64,000 nucleotides of DNA, taken from Kappaphycus alvarezii (taxonomy: Eukaryota > Rhodophyta > Florideophyceae > Gigartinales > Solieriaceae). Under the pieces are notes generated by a model. The model did no database searches, had not been told where the DNA came from, and saw nothing but the letters and a program-made list of their open reading frames with translations. Positions 4,265 through 37,957 of the stretch are shown here, piece after piece (positions within the stretch are counted from its first letter, which is position 1; each line of letters begins with the position of its first letter). The stretch covers positions 62,001 through 126,000 of the forward strand of contig NADL03000614.1 in assembly GCA_002205965.3 (NCBI GenBank), given 5' to 3'. The translations under genes were made by a program, and so were the position numbers.

Positions 4265-5515
4265 CTACTTGATTCTTGCTTCTTCTTCTCTCATGTCCTC
4301 GAATTTCTTTTTCTTCCTTAATTGAATAAACGGGTCGATCTCTTCTGATACGGGAAAATCCGGCGCGCGTGAATTGCCTTCCTCGTAACGCGGCCGGTGG
4401 AGGAAAGTAACTCGTAGCGAGGGAGGTTCGCCTTCGTCACCCTGCACCGCCCATAGAAACACGAGTCGAAGGCCGGCCAACTTCGAACTTCCTGACTTTT
4501 CCTTTGGTCTCGCGGGGTTCCCTGGTCTTCTCCACCACGCCAGCCCGCGTTATCGAATCGGCTAAGGTCTCTATAAGCCGATGATGGGGGCCGGCGTCAT
4601 TGAGAAATGCTACCGAATCGCTGGCCAGCACCCTCGGATTAATTACATACATCAGTCGAAAAGGAGAAGGGGCATCGCTTCGGTCGCGTTTGCGGTAACC
4701 GTATAAGACTTTGGGGAAGCCTTTTGCACAGTCTACCTCACTGCGGACGACAGACCTTTTGATTGCGTGCTTGATAGTTCCCACCATCCGCTCCGCGCGA
4801 CTGTTTGCCATCGGCGCGTAAGCAAGCACCGCTTTCCACTCGACTCCCCTCTCTTTCATGTACTCTTGTACCGATCCCGCCATAAACGCAGTCGCATTAT
4901 CCGAGAAAATTCTCTTTGGCGGCCCGAACGGTGATATTATCTCTTCCTCGATGAACCTCATCACCGTACCGGCCGTAGAATTCATCGTAGCCCACGCTAT
5001 GGGCCACCCTGTCATATGTTCCACAGAGATCAGAATAAATATTTTCCCATTCTTCGAAGGCTTGTAGGGTCCAGCAAAGTACATCGAGAAGGTCTCAAAG
5101 AGTCCAGTAACGGGAGCTCTTAAACTAGAGTGATACGTCGGCAACCTTCTCGCATGCTGACACCCATCGCAAACTTGTACATAATCGGTGACATCACGTT
5201 ATACCCAGGCCACCAGAATCGGTCCCTCACGAACTTTCTTATCGACCCGACGTACCAGTGGCCAATATCATCATGAAATGTGGCCAGTATCTCCGAGCGC
5301 TGATCGATCGGAGGCACGACACCGAGCCCGTCCTTCTCACGACGAAAGAGGGTGTCGTTCCAGAGCATGAAACTTTTTGCGCTCCGTCTGACTGCGACCT
5401 TCTTCTTGGGGTCGGATTCTTGAACTATTTCTCCGGCAAGGAACCGTGCCACATCTAGCAAGTGCGGTTCCAAACCGTACAACTTTGGGTCTGCCCAATC
5501 CACTGTCGCCACCAA
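4265..5515 (-). pseudogene. gypsy integrase
   Basis: Order on the minus strand: H2C2 zinc-binding part (HDDIGHWYVGSIRKFVRDRFWWPG followed by a CDGCQ-type pair in an adjacent frame, about 5170-5300), then the catalytic core at 4437-5144. Core motifs are ISVEHMTGWPIA, FSDNATAF and NSRAERMVG. The second Asp and the Glu of the DDE triad are present. The first position is Glu in SVEHMTGW, where many gypsy integrases have Asp. A charged C-terminal tail continues at 4265-4480 in a shifted frame. No chromodomain is seen. Frame changes near 5140 and 4470 break the frame as written. Confidence 0.85.
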
Positions 5516-5647
5516 TCCTTCTGTTATGTTTTCCCCGTTTCTTCTTTCTTCCTTCTTGTTAGGTCTTTTCGAGAGATAATCGGCCGCCCCATTCAGCAGT
5601 CCCGGACGATACTTGATCTCGAAGTCTTATTCCGCCATCAAATCCCT

Positions 5648-7000
5648 TCACCTTGCCAACCGCCCTTGAATATCTTTCTTCTTGAACGCCGTTTGAAGGG
5701 CTTGATGATCCGTGTAGACAACGAAGGGCTTGTCAGACAGGAGGTACACTCGAAACTTCTTAAAGACCCACACCACGGCGAGTGCTTCTCGTTCGCTCGT
5801 GGAGTAGCGGCGCTCCTCCTCCGTCATCGTTCTAGAAGCAAACTGAATGGGATTTATTTTCCCGTCTTCTTTCTTCTGCGAGAGAACAACCCCAAGGGCT
5901 GCCGAAGAGGCATCTTTTTCCACTAGAAAAGGAGAATTGGAATCCGGAAATGCCAATACTGGAGGGGTAGTCAGTTTCCCCTTCAAGTATTCGAAGGCCT
6001 CTTGCATCTCCGGAGTCCACTCGAAAGCCTTCTTAACAGACGTCGCCGCGTGCAACACTGCTGAGCTGTCGGCAAACACCCTTATGAACCGTCGGTAGTA
6101 CCCCGCGAGTCCCAGAAAACTCCTGAGTTCAGTCACGTTTTTCGGCACCGGAGCTTCTAAAATATCTTTGATCTTGTCGGGATCCACCGTCACGCCACTT
6201 GAATTAACGATCTGACCAAGCAACTTCACTTCTGATTGAGCAAAGCTGCACTTGGTAACCTTCAATTTCAGTTTCGATTCTTTTATCCTCCTGAACACTT
6301 CCTTGCAATGAGCTATGTGTTCCTCCAATGTCTTCAAGAAGATGACAACGTCGTCCACATAAACCGTAACGAATGGCAACCCGCGAAGGACATCATCCAT
6401 CATCCTTTGAAATGTCGCTGGAGCATTCATGAGCCCGAACGGAATTACTTCGAACTTGTACGTTCCATATCGAGAGACAAAGGTCGATTTTTCCTTGCAA
6501 GCCTCGGACATCCTAACCTACCAGTACCCTGTGTAAAGGTCCAATGTTGTGAAGAACTCTGCACCAGAAAGTTCATCGAAGATTTCTTCTATCTTCGGCA
6601 GCGGCCAGCGGTCTGGCTTCATCACCCTGTTCAACTGACGGTAATTGACGCATAACCGGGGCCTTCCGTCTTTCTTCGTGGCTATCACGACCGGAAAGGA
6701 CCAGACGGACCTTGACGGCGTAATGATTCCCGCTTCCAATAATTCCTTCACTTCTTTCCTTACGACCTCGTTATGCCTCGGCGGCATTCGGCGGGCCTTC
6801 GAATGTATCGGTGTCTCGTCCGTCAACTCAAAAGAATGTACCACCGGCACATTAGCAGGCTCTAGGTCGTGAATATCCCAAGCTATGACATCCGTTTCCT
6901 TGAGAGCTCTCGCCAGCTCCTTCTGATTCTTCTCTTCGAGGTGGTCCAGCTTCGAGGCCAATAGAGCCGAGCGGTCCACCTCGTCTTTTACCTCCTTCTT
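5648..7000 (-). pseudogene. gypsy reverse transcriptase and RNase H
   Basis: The N-terminal part (6518-6979) has SFPVVIATKKDGRPRLCVNY and LDLYTGYW. An in-frame TAG at 6518-6520 takes the place of the usual Gln codon in GYWQV. The same frame then continues at 5648-6511 with FGLMNAPATFQRMMD, the catalytic FVTVYVDDVVIF, the thumb LRSFLGLAGYYRRF, and RNase H motifs KDASSAALGVVLSQ, STSEREALAVVW and YTDHQALQTAF. Apart from the single nonsense codon the polymerase domain looks whole, so decay is mild. The end after 5648 is frameshifted toward the integrase. Confidence 0.9.
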
Positions 7001-8587
7001 AACTTCAGTCTTCGTCGAGCGAGGTTGATCAGGCTCGTATGGTTCCTTGTTAATGATAGCTAAGACCAGGTCTTGTTCGGTATCCGATCCACCATCGCTT
7101 TGCTAGACTACGAGAAAGGGTGGAGAGATTCCTCATCGCCTGAACCTTTGGGGGACGTGAAGTCCTCACTATCCGTCTGAGCCCCATTGATTCTGGACGG
7201 CTCGTTGACGAATGGCAACACAACCTCTTCATCTCCAATAACCAAAGTGTACTGTTGGAGTGCATAATCGATGCGCGTCTGGAGGGCTTCCAAAGTCGGG
7301 CTTCCAAAAATAACGTTAAACGGGGCATTTTTGACAACCAGGAACTCAAGGTGCACAACCATTGACCCACAAGACACCGGCACTCCCTTGAGACAACCAA
7401 GAACCTCGGCGACAGTTCCGTCTGCTACTTTCACCTGACGATCGGTTTCCGTCGGGGTGAGGGCAAGCCTTCTGCAGAGGTCCCAAGAGATCAGGTTAGG
7501 AACTGCACCCGTGTCCAAAAGGGCATGAGTCTCCGTTCCATACAACTTCACGGCTACTACCTTGAGTCGGCGTGGACCTCCTGAAGAGTTGACCATCGAC
7601 GCCTGTGTAACCGGTAACCTCTTGGAGAACAATCTCCTTAAAACCTTTCTGGCCTCCTCGGCATCCCCGCGCAATAGTTGCCCGAAGTTCATTCCTGTGG
7701 CAGCGGTAGCAAGTTCAGCGATCACGTTATACTTCCCTACATGATCCTGAAGTCCACCTGATTTCTTCTTCGACTTCCGATTTCCTCTCTTAGTCTTTTT
7801 CTTTGGGTCAGGAACCACCATCGGCGGACGATTACCAGGGGCCTTGTTCAAGATGGCATCAATATCCATCAAGTTTTCCCTCCGCTGTTTCGGGAGGGCC
7901 TGCCCGTCCGCACTTCTCTTCGCAGCGGCAACCACGTCCTTTTTGCGAGATTCCTGAACAACGGCGACCTTGTCCTCGTCCTTCGGTTTCTTCATTTTCA
8001 ATTCTTCTCCAGACTCAGACCGGGCCCTAGCAACTCCTCCCCGCTGATCATCACTACGGGGGTTCTTGGACCAGCATGTTGCTTCCGAATGTCCTTTTCT
8101 CCCACAAATTGTACAGCGGGTATCTCGATGCGGATTATGCGGACAACGGATCGCCCGCCATGTCCTGATCTTCTGCCACTGCTTTCCGAAGCAGTCCGAG
8201 GGAGGCGTTATCGTTGATTACCACTCTCTTGTATAGAGCGTCCAACTGCGCCAGGGATCCTATTACATCCTTCGAGTCCATCATAGCGTTTATAGCCTTC
8301 TGCAGTTCTTCTTTCGGCTTCGGGGTCTTCCCAAACTCCTCGATGAGCTTGGCCTTAACGATCGAATAGTCCTTCGCCTCCACCACCAATGCTCTGTCTC
8401 TCGCTAAAGCCTCGTAGTAACGCTCAAAAGCCGCGCCCTCGAGGTGGCAAAGGATCTGGAGCGCCTTTTACTCGTCGTTTTTTCCGCGCATGACTACATT
8501 CTCGTACGCGAAAGGGAAGCGCGCGACGTCGGAAGAAGGGGATCCGTTGAAGTTAACGTGGGGTCTAAGGGAATCGTTCATGTCCAT
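7001..8587 (-). pseudogene. gypsy gag and aspartic protease
   Basis: Gag probably starts at the ATG at 8587 (MDMNDSLRPH), only about 24 bases from the 5' LTR. It has an in-frame TAA near 8469 and continues to 8135 in the same frame. A one-base surplus in a GGG run near 8160 then shifts to the frame with the knuckle CTICGRKGHSEATC (about 8085-8130) and the protease ORF 7108-8001. The protease active site is ALLDTGAVPNLIS, followed by the flap-type region GVPVSCGS. The frame closes at 7108. One base more leads into a linker that ends in the reverse transcriptase frame, with another TAG on the way. Gag is short for a gypsy element. Confidence 0.85.
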
Positions 8588-12286: not shown

Positions 12287-14133
12287 CTATGAGCTGTCAA
12301 TCTCACGATCATAGCCCCATGACGAAACGACACCGTCATGATTGCAGCTCGCCAACACGCTCTGTCGAGCATTCCACTTCGCTCCATATACCGGGCCCTG
12401 CGCTGGTCCAAGCTTTCCAACCACATCTGTTGTCTCCAAATCCCAGATGTATACAAAGCCGTCCTCTGAACCTCCAACCACCACCTTCTCACGTGGGCCG
12501 AACCGCGTGCGAATAAAGTTCTTGCTTGTATTCTGATGGCCTTTGAAGCGACGCACGGCCTTTGTGGTGCGCAAGTCCCACAGCCTATTCGAGTTATCCT
12601 TCGAGCTCGAGAGCATCAGCGTTCCGGATTGGTTGGTCTCAACTGATGTTACTTCTCCCAAGTGAGAGCTCATTGTTTTGATGCAAAGCCCGGAAATGAT
12701 ATCCCAGAACTTTATGGTCGAGTCTTTACTTCCAGTGATGATCACATTTCCTCGCGCATTATACGCAATACTTGATATCGAACTCTTGTGACCACTGAAT
12801 GTCTTCAACAGACTGCCCGTGGCTGTGTCATACAATCGAACAATTCTGTCGTACCCACCAGAGACCAATGCGTTGCCGTCCGGATGAAACCGAACGGCGT
12901 AAACATCGTTTGAATGGCCGCTTAGCTCTATCTTGCACTCAGTTGTACTTTCGGCATCGCCTGTCCGCGAGACGTTCTCTACCTCGCCGCTCAAAACTCG
13001 GACATCATCTGCAAGTTCTCCGCACCAAATACCGTTGACTAGACTTGACGACCTCATGTGCCTCACTGGAAAACCCTCACTGTTTGCATCCAATAAGTGG
13101 GAGGTGTCCCATATTCGTATTCGACTGTCTCCACTCGCACTGGCTAGCAACCTGCCGTTAGCAGTGGCACTGATATCCCAAATCCGTGATTTATGGCCCG
13201 TAATACAGTCTTGCAGATGCCAGTTGTAGTTTGCCATATCCGTACCGTGTTGTCACTGCTCCCGCTCGCCAACGTGCAACCCTCCTCACCCAAGAAGGTA
13301 GCACATTTAACATTGCCCTCGTGACCAACGAACGTGCCCATACGGAGATTGGGAATCACTACAGCCTCATAGTCTTCTAGAATAGTGCCAATGTGTGGTG
13401 GTACTTTCGGCAAATGACGTGAGGATCCTATCTGAAATGCAAGCGCTTGTTGTAGCAAGTGGAGCAGTCTCCCCGGTGGCACGTCCTTAGCATCAAGAAC
13501 AGTCGTGCTACTTGCAGATATGGGTGCATGGCCATCGCGTTGGTAAGTGTCAAATTCGAGTAAGCGAGAATATTGCTCCACAAGGGCAGTTCGAGATGAT
13601 GCAACACCGTCCCAGTCCCGGAACGAAGGGGCTTCAACGACAGACTTACACGTGAGAAGGTAGCACATATCGCGGAATTCGTCAGAAGTTCTTGCGTAGG
13701 CCTCCAGCTCCTTGAGCCTCCTCTGCAAAATAGAAAACGCCTTCTGAAAATCATGGGCCTCAATGAGCTCAAGAAACTGCTGTCTGTGCACAGCATAGCG
13801 AAATGCTTTCATATTCTTAAACGTTGTGCGTGCAAGGAGGCGCTCAACCTCGGTCCATTCCCCATCCAGAATGGCGCGCTTCATACGTCTTAGCTGGGAC
13901 CGCTTGGAGGCCACATTGCGAAGCTTCACGTTTGTCTCATCTTGGATAATCATGGAAGAACCAGTGTAACCCTCATCCTGAAGGTACTGAATGATGGTGC
14001 GAATGATTTCATGCTTCACAATAGGATCATGTGGATCGAAGATAGACTGATCAAGAACGGCAGCCCGAAGCCCAGCCCCTAACGGACTTCGCTGCCTGAA
14101 GTTGGGACTTGAGGCCGGGGGTGAGTCAGACAT
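12287..14133 (-). CDS. LisH/CTLH/WD40-repeat protein
   Basis: About 615 residues from the ATG at 14133 to the stop at 12287. LisH helix pair at residues about 38-66 (HEIIRTIIQYLQDEGY). A CTLH-type region at about 80-140 is followed by a conserved helical block (FRDMCYLLTCKSVVEAPSFRDWDG). WD40 repeats start near residue 270 and fill the rest, with clear GH...WD units such as SGHKSSISSIAYNARGN and SKDSTIKFWD. Proteins of this build (WDR26/GID7 or SMU1-like) act as scaffolds in ubiquitin-ligase or splicing complexes; I cannot assign the exact orthologue. The frame changes once at about 13200, between TVRIW and TGHKSRIWDI. One added base there restores a seamless repeat, so I read it as an assembly deletion rather than a pseudogene. 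The region just upstream (14421-14450) carries a TACAGTAC cluster. Confidence 0.8.
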
Positions 14134-14972
14134 GGTGCACGCGGGATGATTGCTACTACACGTTCGCGACGTTTGACGTTGATTTTGCTGTGTTTGGCAG
14201 GACAAAATGAATTCCGAGGCTGGTGGCTGGGCAGAGCGAGCGCGCCAACTAGTATGTGGTCTGCACATACACCAGCGAAGTCACTTATCGCATGGCATGG
14301 TGGTTTGCAGTTCCTGCGAGAGGCCCTTGCAACCGTCAAGTCAGTCTCGTCGAGCTACCACCACTTTCGACCCAAGTTCCTACATTGGCCGTCGAATTGC
14401 TTGCTCCAAACTGGAGCTACAGTACAGTACTGTACAGTATATGTACAGTATATGCCATTTCATGAAATGTAAGATTGGCGGAATTCTGCGTATTTTTCTG
14501 TTCAGAGGTGTGGTGTGGTGAAACTCTTTTGACTGACGAAAAGCCAGCTAAAGGGCTATATTTGAGAGTTAACGCATGTAATTTTCAGAACAAAATATGA
14601 CCAAATTTGGGAAACGAGTTCCAATGTGTAATTCAATAGCATTCTTCGAGGATTTTATGAGCGCAATTCCTGAAATCGCTGTAATTAGTGAACATCTATG
14701 AAGAGCGTTTCCGCGGAAAACACCCGCGATTGGTATGACATGGAGCGGCAAAAAGAGAGAAAAAGGTAATCCCAACAGCCTCACCCCACCACACCCCCTG
14801 TTGCGGCAGTTCGGGGTCTGGTTGTGGAAGGGGTGGCGCAAGCGCAATCTCACCATTTAACCACACTCCACGCACTGCAGCGCCATAGAGCGCAGCTGGA
14901 AGGTGTTGTGGGGACTACAGTAGCTGCTGATTCTAGATATTTTCATTCTGGGTAGTTTTATCTGTATTTTAA
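14134..14972. other. Upstream region of the WD40 gene
   Basis: No gene recognised. A tacagtacagtactgtacag cluster lies at about 14421-14450 and may belong to the promoter region. The remainder has no clear coding signal. Confidence 0.4.
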
Positions 14973-30231: not shown

Positions 30232-33200
30232 TCACAAGATTAGTTCTATATGGCAGGTCTGCCAATTACAGACAGCCGGTTTTCCTCCGTTCCTCCCAAA
30301 GAAAGTCATTAACAACCCTTGAACCCATCGACCAAACTCCCCTCGCCCTCCGCTAGCCTTTTCTATTTCAGTATCTCCTCCCAAAACTTCGCCAATCACC
30401 TCCCGGAACCTTACCCAGTTTCCCTTCGCAATTCCCCACAACACGTCAATGGCCTCCTCCCAGAGACTCTCCCTTCCATGTACGATCCCTGCGCATTTCA
30501 AACACTCTAATACCACTCTTTTTCCCAAGAACCCCAGGAAAGCCTCTTCCCTCTGAAATAATCGTCTCGCGGCTTCCAACCTTAATAATCCAAGCAATCC
30601 AGCCCTACATAATACCAAATCCCCACTTTCCACTGCCCCAACGATCCCCTGTATGCTCTTAAAGTACACTTCCTTCCATTCTGTCCCGCCACTCGCCTCT
30701 CTTCCATTAACTCCTCCATTGTCCGCTATGGCCACCGGCCAGAACAATCCCCAGTGCATCCTCAACCCGTCTACCAACATTCCTACAGCACTAACCCCGA
30801 CCTCAACATCGCCCCCAGCTAGACATCGACATCCCAGTTCTACTCCATCTTTAAGCAATCTCACCTCCCCATTACTAATCTCCTCCTGGACCAATCTTAA
30901 TGCTGCCTTGGCCAAGCCAACATTATCCTCCACTCTCGCTACCTCCACCACGATGGAGACAACCTCTCTTCCGATTCCGATTTCCCTTGTCTCATGCCGG
31001 CACACTCTCAATATCTGCTGCATCCCACCGACAATAACCCCATTACCTTATGGATTCGATTCCGTATCTCCATATCTAATTCGCCTGCTTTCGCACCCTC
31101 AAGTTCTTGTCTCAACGTCCGCAGCGCTGTAACGCATTTTTCACACGCTAATTGTCCAAATCCTCTCCAAAAAGCAGTACTACTCAAACCATGCCCTAAT
31201 GAAACCCGAACCGCAGCCGTCCGAATCATACCCGCTCCCTGCTCCAATGTCTCTAATCTGTCAGTCCCAATTATCCCACCTCCATTGCAAGCAGCAGTAA
31301 ACCTTGCAAATACTGAAGACCAAAGCATCTTCAGTGCATCTTGTCTATTACGCCATTCTCCGTCCCCCCACTTCGCAGGTAGTCCAGTTTTTTCGTCCCG
31401 CGGTGGTATAATGGTCCATTGAATTGCGGCTGCAATTCCTAAGGCAGATACAATCCCATGCGGAGATGTCGTAAGCACATTGCATGGAATTGGAGGCTCG
31501 TTCGAAGGAAAGGTCGCAGGGCATGCGTGGTGTAGAGAAAGAATGACAAGTGCACCAGCACATGCAAGTCTGGCCGGTATCTGGGGGTAATTATGAGATC
31601 TGAAAGCGCAGGTACAGAAGATGACGTTACGGACTGAGCGAGGTGTGGAGATGCTTCTCGGACAACACGGCTTAGAATGCTCATGGCACGGAGAAGTGCG
31701 ATACCAAGGCCCTTGCTCTTTCTCCATAATCCGGCTTTCACTAGCGGCCAAGTAGTCTCGAAAAGCGCTCGAGTGACATTGATATTCCCTTTCATAATGA
31801 CTCCAAGGCCACGTGTGATCTGTGCTGCCGTTGCTAGGTCCTCTAAGTCATCTCTCTTGGCCGTCCCATCTTCCAAAGCCAGCGGCTCACCCTTTTCGCG
31901 CAATATCCGTATCAAGAGCTCCGCCACAAAGCCACCAACTTTGTCCGGGCTTGCAGATACACATGACATCAAGATCTCAATGCAGCGTTGGATATAGTCC
32001 TTCCTTTCTATAATTTCCCATTCCTCTGCTGTGACGCGCTGCTCCACAAAAAGTATCCCCTCAAACCCGCGAATGTTTCGCACCACCTCAGCCACAACAC
32101 CACACATCTCTTCCCAGTCATATTCTATATCCAGTAGTTCGTCATCATCCTCCAAATCGTTCAACTCATTGCTATTTCTCATCCAGAAACATCGCGCCAA
32201 ACATTCCTTACTGAGCACCCCAACCACCTTTTCAACAAGCTCATTGCTCTCCTCCATCTCCTCGTACAAATCCAAAACCTCTGACCAACACTCCAGCCCC
32301 CTTATGAAAACACCCCCTTTAGCCTTCATCAACAAACCCATTAGTCCATTCAACAGCCTCTCTGCTCGCCTGCCATTGGAAATCACGCGCCTAAGAACAA
32401 GCTCTGTGTACCCAAACAAAATGACACAATATTCATCCCCGGCCCTTGCTCCCAAGGTCGCTTCCTCCAACAATCCTCCACAATGCGCCTCCACTTCTGA
32501 TAAGTTGCCGACTCGCACCCCTTCGCCGAGCAAGTCACACAGAGCGCTAATCATGGAGACATCAGCAGCACCAGAACATCGCATAAGGACCTGACGTACG
32601 GAGTCTGCAACCTGTGGAATAAGCTTTCCCAATCTTCCCAAGGCATAAACGGCATCGGACTTGACATGTGCTAAAACAGCGGTACCTGCCATACGAGCGG
32701 CGACCTCGAGAACAGCGACAAGATCTGAGCCCATTTGCCTGAGTCGGTCGACGAGAAGTCGACGAATTTGCATTTTCCAGACATGATGTCGAGGCTCAGC
32801 GGCGAGCTCAACGAGAGTGGCTGCCAGGGTGGCACCCGTAGCGATGCAAGCGAGGTTTTTCGGGCTTGTTGGTGCGTGATTGACTAGCGATTGAAGAGTT
32901 TGCGGGTATGGATTGATGAGCGGGGATTGGAGCCAGGCTGGGACTGCTATTTGGGTGGCGAGGGTGGCAGCCTTGCGGGTGAGGTGGGGAGGTGTTGAGG
33001 TTGAGTGAAGTGTGATTAGGAGGGAAATAATGGAGGGAAGAAAAGAGGGGGATGGGGAATTGAGATGGAGTGCATGGAGATAAAAATAAAGCAGGTAAGG
33101 ATCGATTGGGTTTTGGGGATTGGTTAGGTAAGCCTCGGCTGCTTGATGACACGAAGGAGTAGTGAGATAGTGGAGCAGTTGGCTGTGAACGGAAGCACGA

Positions 33201-33268
33201 TGGGCGGGTGGCGTTGATGGAGAATAAAAGTGGTGTAACAAAGAGGAAAGGTCGAGGGTAGGATTCAT
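30232..33268 (-). CDS. Exportin-like (karyopherin-beta) HEAT-repeat protein
   Basis: About 1,010 residues from the ATG at 33268 (MNPTLDLSSLLHHFYSP) to the stop at 30232. Helix-rich throughout, with paired-helix HEAT-type periodicity. The N-terminus (LLHHFYSP...RASVHSQLLHYL) and the stretch with PLINPYPQTLQSLV and RRLLVDRLRQMGSDLVAVL resemble the importin-beta N-terminal domain and the following repeats of nuclear exportins; exportin-6 is the nearest I can think of. Such proteins carry cargo through nuclear pores with Ran-GTP. The reading frame changes twice. One added C in the minus-strand run opposite 31583-31587 and one added G opposite 31038-31041 give a continuous protein. A clear acidic loop (NDLEDDDELLDIEYD) lies mid-protein. 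Family call moderate, exact member weak. Confidence 0.6.
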
Positions 33269-34038
33269 AGTGAAATTGAGTTGGGGGTTAAGAAGGACGT
33301 GGGATGAATGAGTAGTGTGACTTTTGTTACGACAAAGCCAAAGGAAGGCGCCGGAACAAGCCGGATGGGTATTGTCAAGGGAGGGCTGAACAATGGTGAG
33401 GCGGATCAAATCGGAGCTAGGTTGGTTACAGGTTACTGTAGTGTATCTTGAGACCAGCAGTGCTGTAAGCTTATTGTCATCAACTGAACTTTGTTGTTCT
33501 CTTTATTGGTGTCTAAGTTGCCCCCACAGTACTGTACAGTATAGGAGATAGAAACACGTTCATTGCTTGCAGGTCTGCTTACAGTAGTATGCAGATGCAG
33601 GTAGAGCTTCTGGAAAGTACCTACTGTAATACAATTTACAGCACATGAAGGGAGGAGGATCGTATATACTGTAAGCTATCGCAGGTTGGAGTGAAGATTT
33701 TACAAATTCACCTCTAAGCGTTTCGCACCGCTTCCCTACTTCCTCATCCGCAGTATCGATGCGTCTTGCAACACAGGCGGCATAGTACCCTGGGACACCA
33801 CTCGCAGCATTCAAATATTAAGGAACCCAACCTTCCCCTCTGCGGCACACGGAAACTAATTTCCCAATCATTAAAACTCCTCAAGGTTTTCCCTTCAAGT
33901 CAGCACAGCGATCTATTTCCGAAATAGGGCGCGTTATGTATGACTATACTGCGAGGAAGTTCTAGAGGGCTACGAACCAAGCACGTTATCAAGGTCGGCT
34001 ATATATACCGAGGAAGACGGCAGACGTCTTCACTCTGT
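33269..34038. other. Upstream region of the exportin-like gene
   Basis: Contains cagtactgtacagtata (33528-33544) and further tactgta words to 33680, similar to those beside other host genes. No gene recognised. Confidence 0.45.
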
Positions 34039-34420
34039 CTAGAAAGATGTGCGGAGACCAGATAACAGACAGGGCACGTAAGAAGAGACCACTACCGCGG
34101 CATGCCGCTGGTGAACAATCGATTTTGCCCTCGACAAACGCTCCGTGCCTCTATCCGCAACAAATTTTGCCAGGCCTGTGGCAATGGAAAATGCAGCAAG
34201 ATGCCGTCCTTCCAAGCAGTGCTCGACCTTCGATAGACCGGCGGGCTTGAACACATGTCTGGGAAGAGATTCCGAATGGTGCTGTGCACAACGCCATATC
34301 CAGAGTTGCAGGTCGAGGCGTGATCACCTCGGGGGTTGGTCTGGCCACGGGAATGGCGGCAACGGATCAGGTTTACCGAGTCCTCGTAAATGCGGAGGTC
34401 GAGATTTCAGCGCAGCATAA
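34039..34420 (-). pseudogene. RLE-type non-LTR retroelement fragment
   Basis: Minus strand: one frame reads RGDHASTCNSGYGVVHSTIRN (an H-X3-C zinc element with a trailing His) near 34280-34340. The other ends with QRHAAVVVSSYVPCLLSGL near 34060-34110, against QRHAAAAVMSNAACLLAGI in the copy at 60253. The endonuclease core between them is largely lost. It lies between two host genes. Confidence 0.6.
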
Positions 34421-35070
34421 CTGACCAGACATCGTTGTGGACCTTGACGCTGGCGGAGGGATGGGCAGTGGGGAAGGCGAGTCGCCGGGGTAGAGAAGGG
34501 AGTTGTGGAGAGCGCGTTGGGGGACAGATGCTGCGCTGTGGCCCCGAGGCTTGGGTGGGCGTTCTAGAGGTCATCCTCCCAGAAATTTTCGCTCCTCGGT
34601 AGCTTGCAACATCTGCACCAGGAAGGTGAAGGGGGGACCGGTGCGTTGGGCGCACGTTTCCGGCTCTAAGGGGCCTAGCTCGAGGGCCCCAAACTCAAAG
34701 CCCGGGGGCCGGAGGCGCTCTGGGAGGAGTGCAACGTAGCCACGGATGGGATTGCGGGGAGCGCGGCGTTAAGAGGGGTGAGGATGGTCAGGGCTAGTGA
34801 TTCGATGCTTTGCGACGGCCAGTAGGCTTGCGGCGTTGGACATTTGGATGTTGCTGTTGATGGGCACTTTTACGGTACTGTAGGAGGACAGGATATGCCG
34901 TAAGAAATCTTTTTGTAAGAAATCTTCTTCCTCCCTGTAACTGTTTCCGTAAGCCTCACACTTTGACCAGCCAGTTCATCGGTGGATGCTTTGACGTTGA
35001 TGTTAACATCTGAACACTAAGTTTCAAGAAAACATCGTCCTGAGAAAACAACCGAAGATGCTGTTGAAGT
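34421..35070. other. Intergenic, GC-rich, no gene recognised
   Basis: Several overlapping frames on both strands reflect high GC content only. May include more decayed retroelement sequence. Confidence 0.35.
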
Positions 35071-37957
35071 TTATGGGTTAAACTGACTATCAGGGTAGAG
35101 CAAAGAATCCTTATCCTGCTGAAATTCCCGAGTGACCATCTCGTTCCACATTGTACGTAGCATTTCAACCGATACATGGTCGGTATTTTCAGCACGGGAA
35201 GAACGTGACGGAATGCGTGCAGGACTTTTGTCAGGAATGGAGAATTGATTACCTAAAACAGTGTTATCTGCGCCACTGAGACCCTCTGCCTCTACATTAA
35301 TGTTACCTTCGTAATTGAGAGGAGGAGATAATTCATGTTGATCTTGACTCGATCTAGTGTCTCTATTCACATCAGTTCTGCCTTCGCGCACTCCCTTACG
35401 TCTGGTCCCTCTCACATGTACACTATTTCCCTCCGACTGTGACTCTAAATCCATCTGCGGTGTCCTCGAGGCCAATTTCTCGAACGACCGGTTCTGTGCT
35501 GTTCTGGAAGATAACTGAACGGAGAGTGAACTCGGGAATTCCGCGCGGTCCTCCGTGTAACGACGTCCACCCATGTACTCCTCGAATAGCCCAGAGCCTT
35601 CTCCCTCAGAGTCTGAGTCTGTGAGAGAATAGTCCTCTGAGAAGTAATCCATCTTCATGGAGTTCTGCCTTGAAGAATCTGGGGTCACTCTTCCACCAGA
35701 GAACCCGAATGCACTTCTGCCGGAAAAGCTATCAGTTATTCGAACTGCTTGAATATCCGCGTTCTGCGAGTTTGCTGCAAGTGCGCCAAGTGTTGGATGA
35801 TATACGACTCCAGCTACTGACTCTTCTCCCCTTGACTCAAAACTTGATCCCAATGCACCGTACTCAAGTTTCTCACCTTCATTTGATGCCTCTCCCCCAC
35901 TACGACAATACTTAGGCGCACGGTTCATTCCTGAGCTGGAGTCTGCTCCACGGCTAGACCCTTGTAAACCATTGGCGTACCCGTCCTCCTCCAAGCTAGT
36001 CTCCACATTTCCAACCTTTTTCCAAATCGGTGCAAGGATCTTTGGTCTCTTTGCAATCGCGAGCGCTCGCAAAGCCGAGACATCAATCGCCGTCTCCTCA
36101 GCCACTTGCTCTGATTCGGCATCTATTGAGGCAAATGCCGCGAGATGTGTCTCAGTCTTGGTTATGTTTGGTTGCTTTATCTCTTGCGAGCCCAGAATGC
36201 CTGATAATGGTCCTTCTCGAAATCCATTTCTTGACGATGGGAGAGATAAACTGTTGCCAGAGTTATGCTTGGATAGAGGCAATCGCGAACTTGAGTCATT
36301 TTGTCCTTCTGATAGAGTGCCCGCTTGCGAAAGGTTTCGCCTGGACGTTTGGATTTCTAGTTTCTTCCATGCGAGCTCTAAATTTGCTTCGTCCCTAGCA
36401 CTCTTGAAAGCCACGCTGTCTAGACTTGGTTCCACACTCTTGTCGGTTCCTTCTAGCACATCATCTACCACTCGCTGAGTCGGAATTCTGTGAATATGCG
36501 ACAATTCCTGTTTGGAGGGCGCGCGAAACAGTCGTTCCCAGGCATCTGGAAGCCATTGCGGCGCATCTTCCATGACAAATCTGGGCTCATCTATCATTTC
36601 TTCGTCGTCCATTTGCTTCAACAGGGCCCTTACGGCACCAATGCTCTTTGCAGAAAACTCAGTGGCACTCTTAACTGCGGCTCTTGACAGAGTATTGATC
36701 GATAGTCTCGCCATTCGATGGTCTTCTACGATCCCCTCAAATGGATCAGCGATGGCGGCATCAATTTCTCCCGCCTTGACGAAACTTTCCTCTCTTTCCA
36801 ATCCTTCTATCCACTGCTTTCTCCTTTTCCTAACCAATCTCAACCCGCATGTTGCCAGAATTACGGTAATCAACCCCAGCAAGGACAGTGCCGCAACGAC
36901 AATAATACTTACCCTCGCCGCCGTACTCAAACCCTCCTCTGGAGCCAAATCTACGTCGCCAATACCGTCCCCTGGTATAAAGACCTCCACCAATTCCTCC
37001 TGGCCAACAATCCCTCTGATCCAATCTATGTATTCTGCAACGGCTGTATACACCACCGGCCTGCTACTACTTGTGCATGCTGCTTCTGCATCAAACAATA
37101 ATGCCTGCAAACCAAACGTGACCACCCCAACCAAGACACTGACAGTGCCAGAGGCATCAACATCATACAATGGGGCACCAGTATCCCCCAACAGGGACCG
37201 CAATCGCCATTTGGGGAGGTGCAGAGTCTTCGGCGACCGTCATTCCCTCCCGGGCCGCAACGAGAGGTCTCCAAATCGGTGAATTTGAGTTCGCGAGTCT
37301 CCCCGATGAGTGGGTCAGAGCGGGCAGTGAGACCAAATCCTTTGACGCGCAGATAACGAGTGCCATTCATTCCGAATGTAGGATTTGTATTGACCCTCAT
37401 GAAATTGAATGCTGGAGCCTGTGGTTGTGCAACAGCATCAGGCTCTCCGTCCAATGGTTGTGTATTTTGTGGGGGTGGCGGACTGGCAGAGGGCATTCCA
37501 CCAAAAGCCGGGGCAGCTAGCCGAACTAGCTGCAGATCGCCTCTCGGGATTTCGCTGGGACGGTCCCACGAGGGATGCGGTATGGCATTTGCGATAGGTA
37601 GGTGGCGTTCGTTGTCAGGGTCGTGGTGAGGGGGTTGACAAGGGCGATCCATTGAGGAGAGACGAGACATTGCGCGGAGGTGATGATCCAGAACGAAGAG
37701 AGAAGTGAGCCTGCACATTGGATTTGATTTTGGGGGTCAAGCAATACGACAATGTTGTCAAAGGTGGTGGGGGGAGGCTGAAGACCGGCAAGAATACGAG
37801 AGATTGGGGCGGCAGTGGGAATGGCAGGGATGGGGGACGGAAGGACAGCGGGTGGGGTGGGCAGTTGCAAAGAGCATTTTGCGGTGGTCAAGGTGGGAAG
37901 AAAGAGGATAAGTATGAATCGAGAGAGCAGTGCGATGGGTAAAGGGAGCGAGAGCAT
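35071..37957 (-). CDS. Membrane-anchored trypsin-like pseudoprotease
   Basis: Start ATG at 37957. Signal peptide about residues 1-26 (LSRFILILFLPTLTTA). A chymotrypsin-fold domain follows: WIITSAQCL (37663-37690) is the catalytic-His block of S1 proteases with Gln in place of His; GDLQLVRL (Asp codon 37536-37538) is the Asp block and is intact; CTSPNGDCGPCWGDTGAPLYD is the Ser block with Thr in place of Ser; VVYTAVAEYIDWI is the terminal helix. A transmembrane segment follows (36844-36912, IIVVAALSLLGLITVILATCG), stopped by RLVRKRRKQ, then a cytoplasmic, Ser/Glu-rich tail of about 580 residues. Two frame changes each need one base: near 37590 and in CCCCC at 37185-37189. Inferred role: binding or sensing at a membrane, not proteolysis. 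Partner unknown. Confidence 0.72.

Follow-up and report, generated by a model that had tools for sequence, protein, structure and literature searches.

Results

Layout of the locus

The window, by which we mean the whole 64,000-nucleotide stretch of Kappaphycus alvarezii DNA analysed here, carries on its minus strand, at 35071..37957, a coding region that reads as one protein of 962 residues once two missing bases are allowed for. As assembled, it is spread over three minus-strand frames: the first holds the His block of a peptidase S1 domain after a signal-like N-terminus, the second the Asp block and further cysteines, and the third the Ser block, a membrane span and a long tail. All parts given below lie on the minus strand. 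The hydrophobic N-terminus (residues 1-26; 37880..37957) is a probable signal peptide, judging from its sequence and from the hydropathy of a second copy of the gene on contig C783, with the cleavage site placed by inspection. A Pro-rich stretch of residues 27-53 (37799..37879), closed by an Arg that is R54 of RILAG, resembles a propeptide and may act as one. The S1 (trypsin-fold) domain, delimited by PF00089 and by our own S1 model, starts with RILAG and covers residues 54-315 (37015..37798). A stalk of 34 residues (36913..37014) leads from it to the membrane span (residues 350-372; 36844..36912), which has a mean hydropathy of 2.88 over 19 residues and is followed by LRLVRKRRK; the remaining 590 residues (35074..36843) form the putative cytoplasmic tail. 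The signal peptide, single span and tail of about 580 residues described in the sequence-only reading are thus borne out by the hydrophobic N-terminus, the single strong hydrophobic segment after the S1 domain and the tail of about 590 residues. Our somewhat favoured assignment of the product is a type I membrane protein consisting of a signal peptide, a short propeptide, an S1 domain, a stalk, a span and a long Ser/Glu-rich tail.

Just downstream of the gene, at 34235-34852, lies a dispersed repeat of about 600 bases, which holds most of the at least 44 matches recorded (40 of 349 candidates scored). The neighbour gene, at 30232-33502 on the minus strand, has no Pfam match over the cut-off and is laid out in three overlapping frames whose breaks are partly missing bases. 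Farther along the minus strand, a protein with CTLH-like and WD40 domains is encoded in two overlapping frames at 12287-14280; from the domain order we take it to be SMU1-like. Pieces of a retroelement (aspartyl protease, reverse transcriptase with RNase H, and integrase) occupy 4437-8217, also on the minus strand.

Frame breaks and the second copy

The frame of the assembled window gene shifts twice, with one base missing each time: near 37622 (37621..37622), where one G of the C783 copy is absent, and in a run of five G (G5) at 37189-37185. The second copy, at C783:216459-219343, is 96% identical and syntenic, with the neighbour gene also there at 96%; it is free of the first break and has three breaks of its own. 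When both copies were merged and one G was added to the run that is short in both, a single 962-residue frame resulted. The coding region shows four single-base indels between the copies, with the base absent from the window once and from C783 three times, and each, including the first window break, is confined to one copy. The G5 run has equal length in both copies, so that the second break is present in both, and the S1 motif needs one extra base there. A similar picture was obtained for the 3.6-kb stretch with the neighbour gene, where single-base events make up 12 of the 16 internal indels, the base being absent from C783 in 10 cases and from the window in 2; the frames of the neighbour gene become longer once the copies are merged, yet at least one break remains, showing that shared breaks occur there as well.

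Two other S1 genes of the same genome provide a closer comparison. L011 and L037 have 0 mismatches over 851 columns and two one-base gaps; one gap falls in a G run (7 versus 6) that lies five codons ahead of GDSGGP, where the frame stays intact only with 7 G. The run of L048 is also 6, making the short form common to two of these three copies. L018 and L003 differ by 19 mismatches over 696 columns, and their sole gap falls within GDSGGP itself, in its G run (4 versus 5; L004 has 5), the shorter run of L018 breaking the frame. The G5 run of the window gene is at the same place as this gap. With G runs varying by one base among near-identical copies of these two genes, the frame breaks are more probably assembly errors than signs of decay, and by this analogy we infer that the G5 break is a base undercalled in both copies.

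Introns were considered at the frame changes and rejected. A single base present in C783 is enough to remove the first break, and the second lies inside CWGDTGAP, with one frame coding right up to that point; several relatives have an intron-type gap at the place of the second break, as seen by eye, but the window gene does not. What had earlier been taken for junctions to be confirmed by cDNA are, from the C783 comparison and the CWGDTGAP motif, missing bases and not introns. As far as can be told from sequence, the gene appears intronless in its coding part, and it is probably a real, working gene.

Contigs C460, C619 and C620 share S1 genes that are 97-99.8% identical in four compared pairs, and haplotypes therefore seem to have been kept apart in the assembly; these contigs look like uncollapsed haplotypes, possibly three. 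We take the C783 copy as probably allelic to the window gene, with a recent duplication as the alternative. On the merged frame, with codons touched by indels removed, dN/dS between the window gene and the C783 copy is 0.31 (bootstrap 0.19-0.51), from 33 synonymous and 33 non-synonymous differences in 957 codons. By part, it is 0.19 (0.05-0.54) for the S1 domain and 0.32 (0.16-0.63) for the tail, both with wide intervals. The non-synonymous divergence is 0.015, against flanking sequence that differs at 4.4% and 6.1% of its aligned sites. These values indicate purifying selection on the pair, which consists of two copies only, perhaps alleles of one plant.

An S1 domain with an altered triad and pocket

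The merged reading matches PF00089 with an E value of 1.3e-15 and 58.3 bits (cut-off 20.6) over residues 62-314, corresponding to profile positions 8-220 of 220; the peptidase S1 fold is thus recognised above the curated cut-off along the whole domain. The homology to S1 is no chance match: an untouched 240-residue frame of the C783 copy also scores above the 20.6 cut-off (E 5.3e-8, 33.4 bits). The three uncorrected window frames all stay below it (17.2 bits, no match and 13.0 bits). For our own S1 model we drew on 12 S1 frames from this genome in which the His and Ser motifs are intact, haplotype copies and one frame of bacterial type among them; it aligned to the window gene in two pieces over positions 4-234 of 236.

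At the triad positions, the merged protein has Gln96 in TSAQC (codon 37670..37672), Asp141 in RGDLQLVRL (37536..37538, placed by alignment to the S1 model) and Thr260 in GDTGAP (37180..37182). The C783 copy has the same Gln, Asp and Thr, so that neither copy carries the His, Asp and Ser of an active S1 peptidase. In chymotrypsin numbering, for residues and bridges alike, the aligned pocket has Gly for Asp189, Thr for Ser214, Val for Gly226 and a Trp at 192; the Asp at 189 and Gly at 226 of trypsin-type specificity are thus replaced by Gly and Val. Ala stands at the place of Gly197, and Gly193 and Asp194 are retained. Cysteines 81/97, 234/246 and 256/295 occupy the aligned places of bridges 42-58, 168-182 and 191-220, their pairing being predicted. 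The ectodomain still has two His, residues 119 and 128. The earlier description of a trypsin-like domain with a dead triad, in which His is changed to Gln and Ser to Thr and the Asp and bridge cysteines are retained, therefore holds, and for both copies.

The active form of trypsins starts at R-IVGG, and the window gene retains an activation-like site, R-ILAG. In an alignment of 18 relatives and the C783 copy, which was used for insertion and activation sites, the C783 copy has a Pro-rich insertion of 29 residues after the Asp strand that is lacking in all 18 relatives; the window gene has a counterpart.

Catalysis is unlikely because the general base and the nucleophile are lost in both copies, together with the pocket changes. 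We regard it as highly likely, on these sequence grounds, that the domain is catalytically inactive and that the whole is a single gene. With the fold kept, the triad lost and selection maintaining the gene, the product has the features of an S1 pseudoprotease, its inactivity being predicted.

A long tail confined, within this genome, to the gene and its second copy

The tail of 590 residues (594 when counted as in the relatives) has 17.1% S+T, 15.6% D+E and one Cys. A Pfam search of it returned only matches below the cut-off, and a PDB search a single match with an E value of 0.11. CK2-like sites are not enriched in it, with 20 found versus 15.9 in shuffles and 131 of 1000 shuffles as high. 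A search of the own genome with the 722-residue frame found the gene itself, two C783 pieces and three weak matches (E 0.08, 0.19 and 0.58), which begin in the Ser block and reach no more than about 50 residues beyond the span; no full-length tail paralogue was found by this search beyond the C783 copy. Within this genome, the long tail is seen only in the window gene and its C783 copy.

The S1 family of the genome

The genome searched, in which phycobilisome-domain genes occur (3 matches) as would be expected for a red alga, comprises 336,021,096 bases in 884 contigs and gave at least 114 matches to PF00089, many of which are exons or haplotype copies. The window gene is missing from this list because of its broken frames; the C783 piece at 216642-216911 is in it. 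From the listed places, a subset was examined that comprised 48 loci together with their flanks as well as 16 short pieces. Eight of these 64 gave no chain above 20 bits and were left unjudged (L028, L039, L041, L046, L060, L061, L062 and L064; four without a match).

A strong hydrophobic segment follows in frame after 26 of 59 S1 C-terminal matches. Leaving out the window gene and double counts (L017 twice, L072 identical to L035, and one L005 frame identical to L007) and counting haplotype copies, 22 other anchored places remain, and His, Asp and Ser are intact before the span in 18 of them; the other four are L035, L040 and the second domain in each of L015 and L017. Among the 22, stalks measure 18-66 residues, except for L006 (141), and in-frame tails 4-144 residues, these being lower bounds where an intron or break follows. 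A receptor-like layout had been seen as something special to the pseudoprotease; since 18 of the 22 other anchored places keep the triad, the anchored layout is instead a family trait, and what stands out is the combination of a dead triad with a long constrained tail.

Other members of the family have also lost triad residues. The sequence-only reading allowed for the case that all homologues have His and Ser and this copy alone is changed, which does not apply: both changes recur in the C783 copy, and another, distinct branch made up of six places (L035, L040, L042, L057, L058 and L071) has Gln for His in five of six (the His block of L071 is unread) and a replaced Ser in five of six (Gly in L035, L057, L058 and L071, Glu in L040; the Ser block of L042 is unread). 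The Asp is kept in five of the six, L058 reading otherwise there. In L015 and L017, the second domain carries Arg at the His place and Glu at the Ser place. Further changes are Arg for Ser in L022, Tyr for Ser with Asn for Asp in L067, Glu for Asp in L014 and Tyr at the His place in L068. L015 and L017 (1880-3796) are tandem S1 genes in which an intact first domain is followed by a dead second domain and then a hydrophobic segment.

In a tree of 60 rows with at least 130 columns each (this length excluded L068 and the second domain of L015, among others), the ten rows labelled inactive require five changes, L014 not being labelled. Inactive S1 domains thus occur in several branches of the family. 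The six-row Gln branch has full support and is separate from the window gene, whose end branch is 2.04 and whose placement, like that of long rows in general, is unsure according to the program's warning. Nearest to it by path are L003, L018 and L004, all with intact triads; no well-supported group contains it, and its highest identity to any relative is 32% (L047). L022 groups with the bacterial-type L008. The latter, on contig C581 of 59840 bases, is a bacterial-looking S1 gene with a lipoprotein-like start as judged by eye, and the contig may be a bacterial contaminant.

Discussion

Based on our findings, we propose, as the explanation we consider somewhat more probable than all others together, that the window gene encodes a membrane-bound S1 pseudoprotease for binding or sensing. 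It would have arisen within a large family of membrane-anchored S1 proteases. Its ectodomain would no longer cut; the S1 fold, held outside the cell, may instead bind a partner such as an inhibitor, a protein of the wall or of a pathogen, or one of the active S1 relatives, and the tail could be a platform for docking and phosphorylation. Binding and a cytoplasmic role are argued from the constraint on both ectodomain and tail. The layout and animal cases such as hepatocyte growth factor (HGF) and the insect homologues lead us to two narrower ideas: a role as receptor or co-receptor, which we put forward tentatively as falling a little short of an even chance, and a switch operated by cleavage at R-ILAG, which is possible and rather doubtful.

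The rival that survives best, although unlikely, is a membrane-held decoy, in which the dead S1 domain absorbs inhibitors or competes for the substrates of active relatives and the tail merely places or recycles it. In favour of it, the same genome contains anchored relatives with intact triads. Pathogen responses of P. tenera, presumably Pyropia tenera, also bear on this idea. Serine protease genes are reported to be among the commonest pathogen-induced genes of this alga in a review passage (PMC8307928) that names neither S1 nor the window gene; the induction would suit a decoy and be compatible with a role at the wall. Against a decoy, the altered pocket (Gly189, Trp192, Val226) would be expected to bind inhibitors that mimic trypsin substrates only weakly, and a tail of 590 residues with a dN/dS of 0.32 exceeds what anchoring needs.

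The gene could also be a decaying pseudogene, an anchored S1 protease that lost first its triad and then its frame. Two frame breaks in the assembled gene, the second shared by both copies, and the long end branch of 2.04 in the tree are what such decay would leave. However, dN/dS has an upper bootstrap limit of 0.51, and the non-synonymous divergence of 0.015 lies below the 0.044 and 0.061 of the flanks. The breaks are single missing bases like those of the neighbour gene and of near-identical copies of other S1 genes, and the bridge cysteines and R-ILAG are retained. We therefore consider a pseudogene improbable.

Far less probable is a protease that is still active, by means of a Thr nucleophile or through some other catalytic layout. 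In its favour, Asp102, Gly193, Asp194 and the bridge cysteines persist, the pair shows purifying selection, and His119 and His128 are left in the ectodomain; but His57 is Gln in both copies and the pocket residues are changed as well. It is unlikely that Thr would serve as nucleophile in the absence of His57. We give equally little credence to G5 as a real slippage site, at which reading on would yield a truncated form ending before the span and a slip back by one base the membrane form; although G5 is found in both copies and the slip yields exactly CWGDTGAP, five bases are short for slippage, no canonical slippery heptamer was seen by eye at G5, and two other S1 genes have close copies whose G runs near this motif are one base apart in length, with the frame lost in the shorter form.

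The membrane-bound pseudoprotease that we favour recalls several animal systems. HGF and MSP have an S1 domain with Gln at His57, a replaced Ser195 and a preserved cleavage site, and bind receptors without cutting; the window gene resembles them in the first three of these features. Both are secreted, as ligands whose S1 domain is preceded by kringle and PAN domains, whereas in the window gene the S1 domain itself is tied to the membrane, and no kringle or PAN domain was found in residues 1-391, where PF00089 is the sole Pfam match at E up to 1. Animal membrane S1 proteases also tie an external S1 domain to the membrane, either as type II proteins, with an N-terminal signal anchor and a C-terminal S1 domain, or by a GPI anchor. 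Unlike these, with their N-terminal span or lipid anchor, the window protein combines a signal peptide, a C-terminal span and a long inner tail; with its S1 domain before the main span and 590 residues of tail after it, it is not a type II transmembrane serine protease. The insect serine protease homologues, which belong to another kingdom and are mostly soluble, and of which we know none with a long cytoplasmic tail, are like the red algal family in belonging to a large S1 family with many members that lack the triad. In the S1 family of Tenebrio, the triad is reported to be conserved in 137 of 269 members (PMC11172050). Our literature search on S1 proteases and pseudoproteases of red algae gave none on red algal S1 pseudoproteases among the matches listed.

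To our knowledge, little is known of the cell-surface receptors of red algae, and a membrane-bound dead protease kept by selection and carrying a long inner tail is a concrete candidate for one. Going further, one may speculate about a red algal surface system in which anchored S1 proteases cut and switch anchored S1 pseudoproteases whose long tails signal inside; we regard this as a long shot. If true, it would be a walled, plant-like counterpart of the animal cascades of proteases and protease homologues, invented within one gene family. The large anchored S1 family with intact triads, together with at least one further inactive branch, would allow the repeated change from protease to binding module to be studied outside animals.

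The closest likenesses are found within the same genome. L003, L013, L037/L048 and L038/L047 share with the window gene the S1 domain, a stalk (25-53 residues), a C-terminal span and an inner tail, and L003, L013 and L038 also the R-I start of the domain; they differ in having intact triads and tails of 55-144 residues versus about 590. In the Gln branch, L035 and L040 have a span like that of the window gene but a tail of 23 residues, and the Ser block of the branch reads GDGGGP or GNEGSP, in contrast to the GDTGAP of the window gene.
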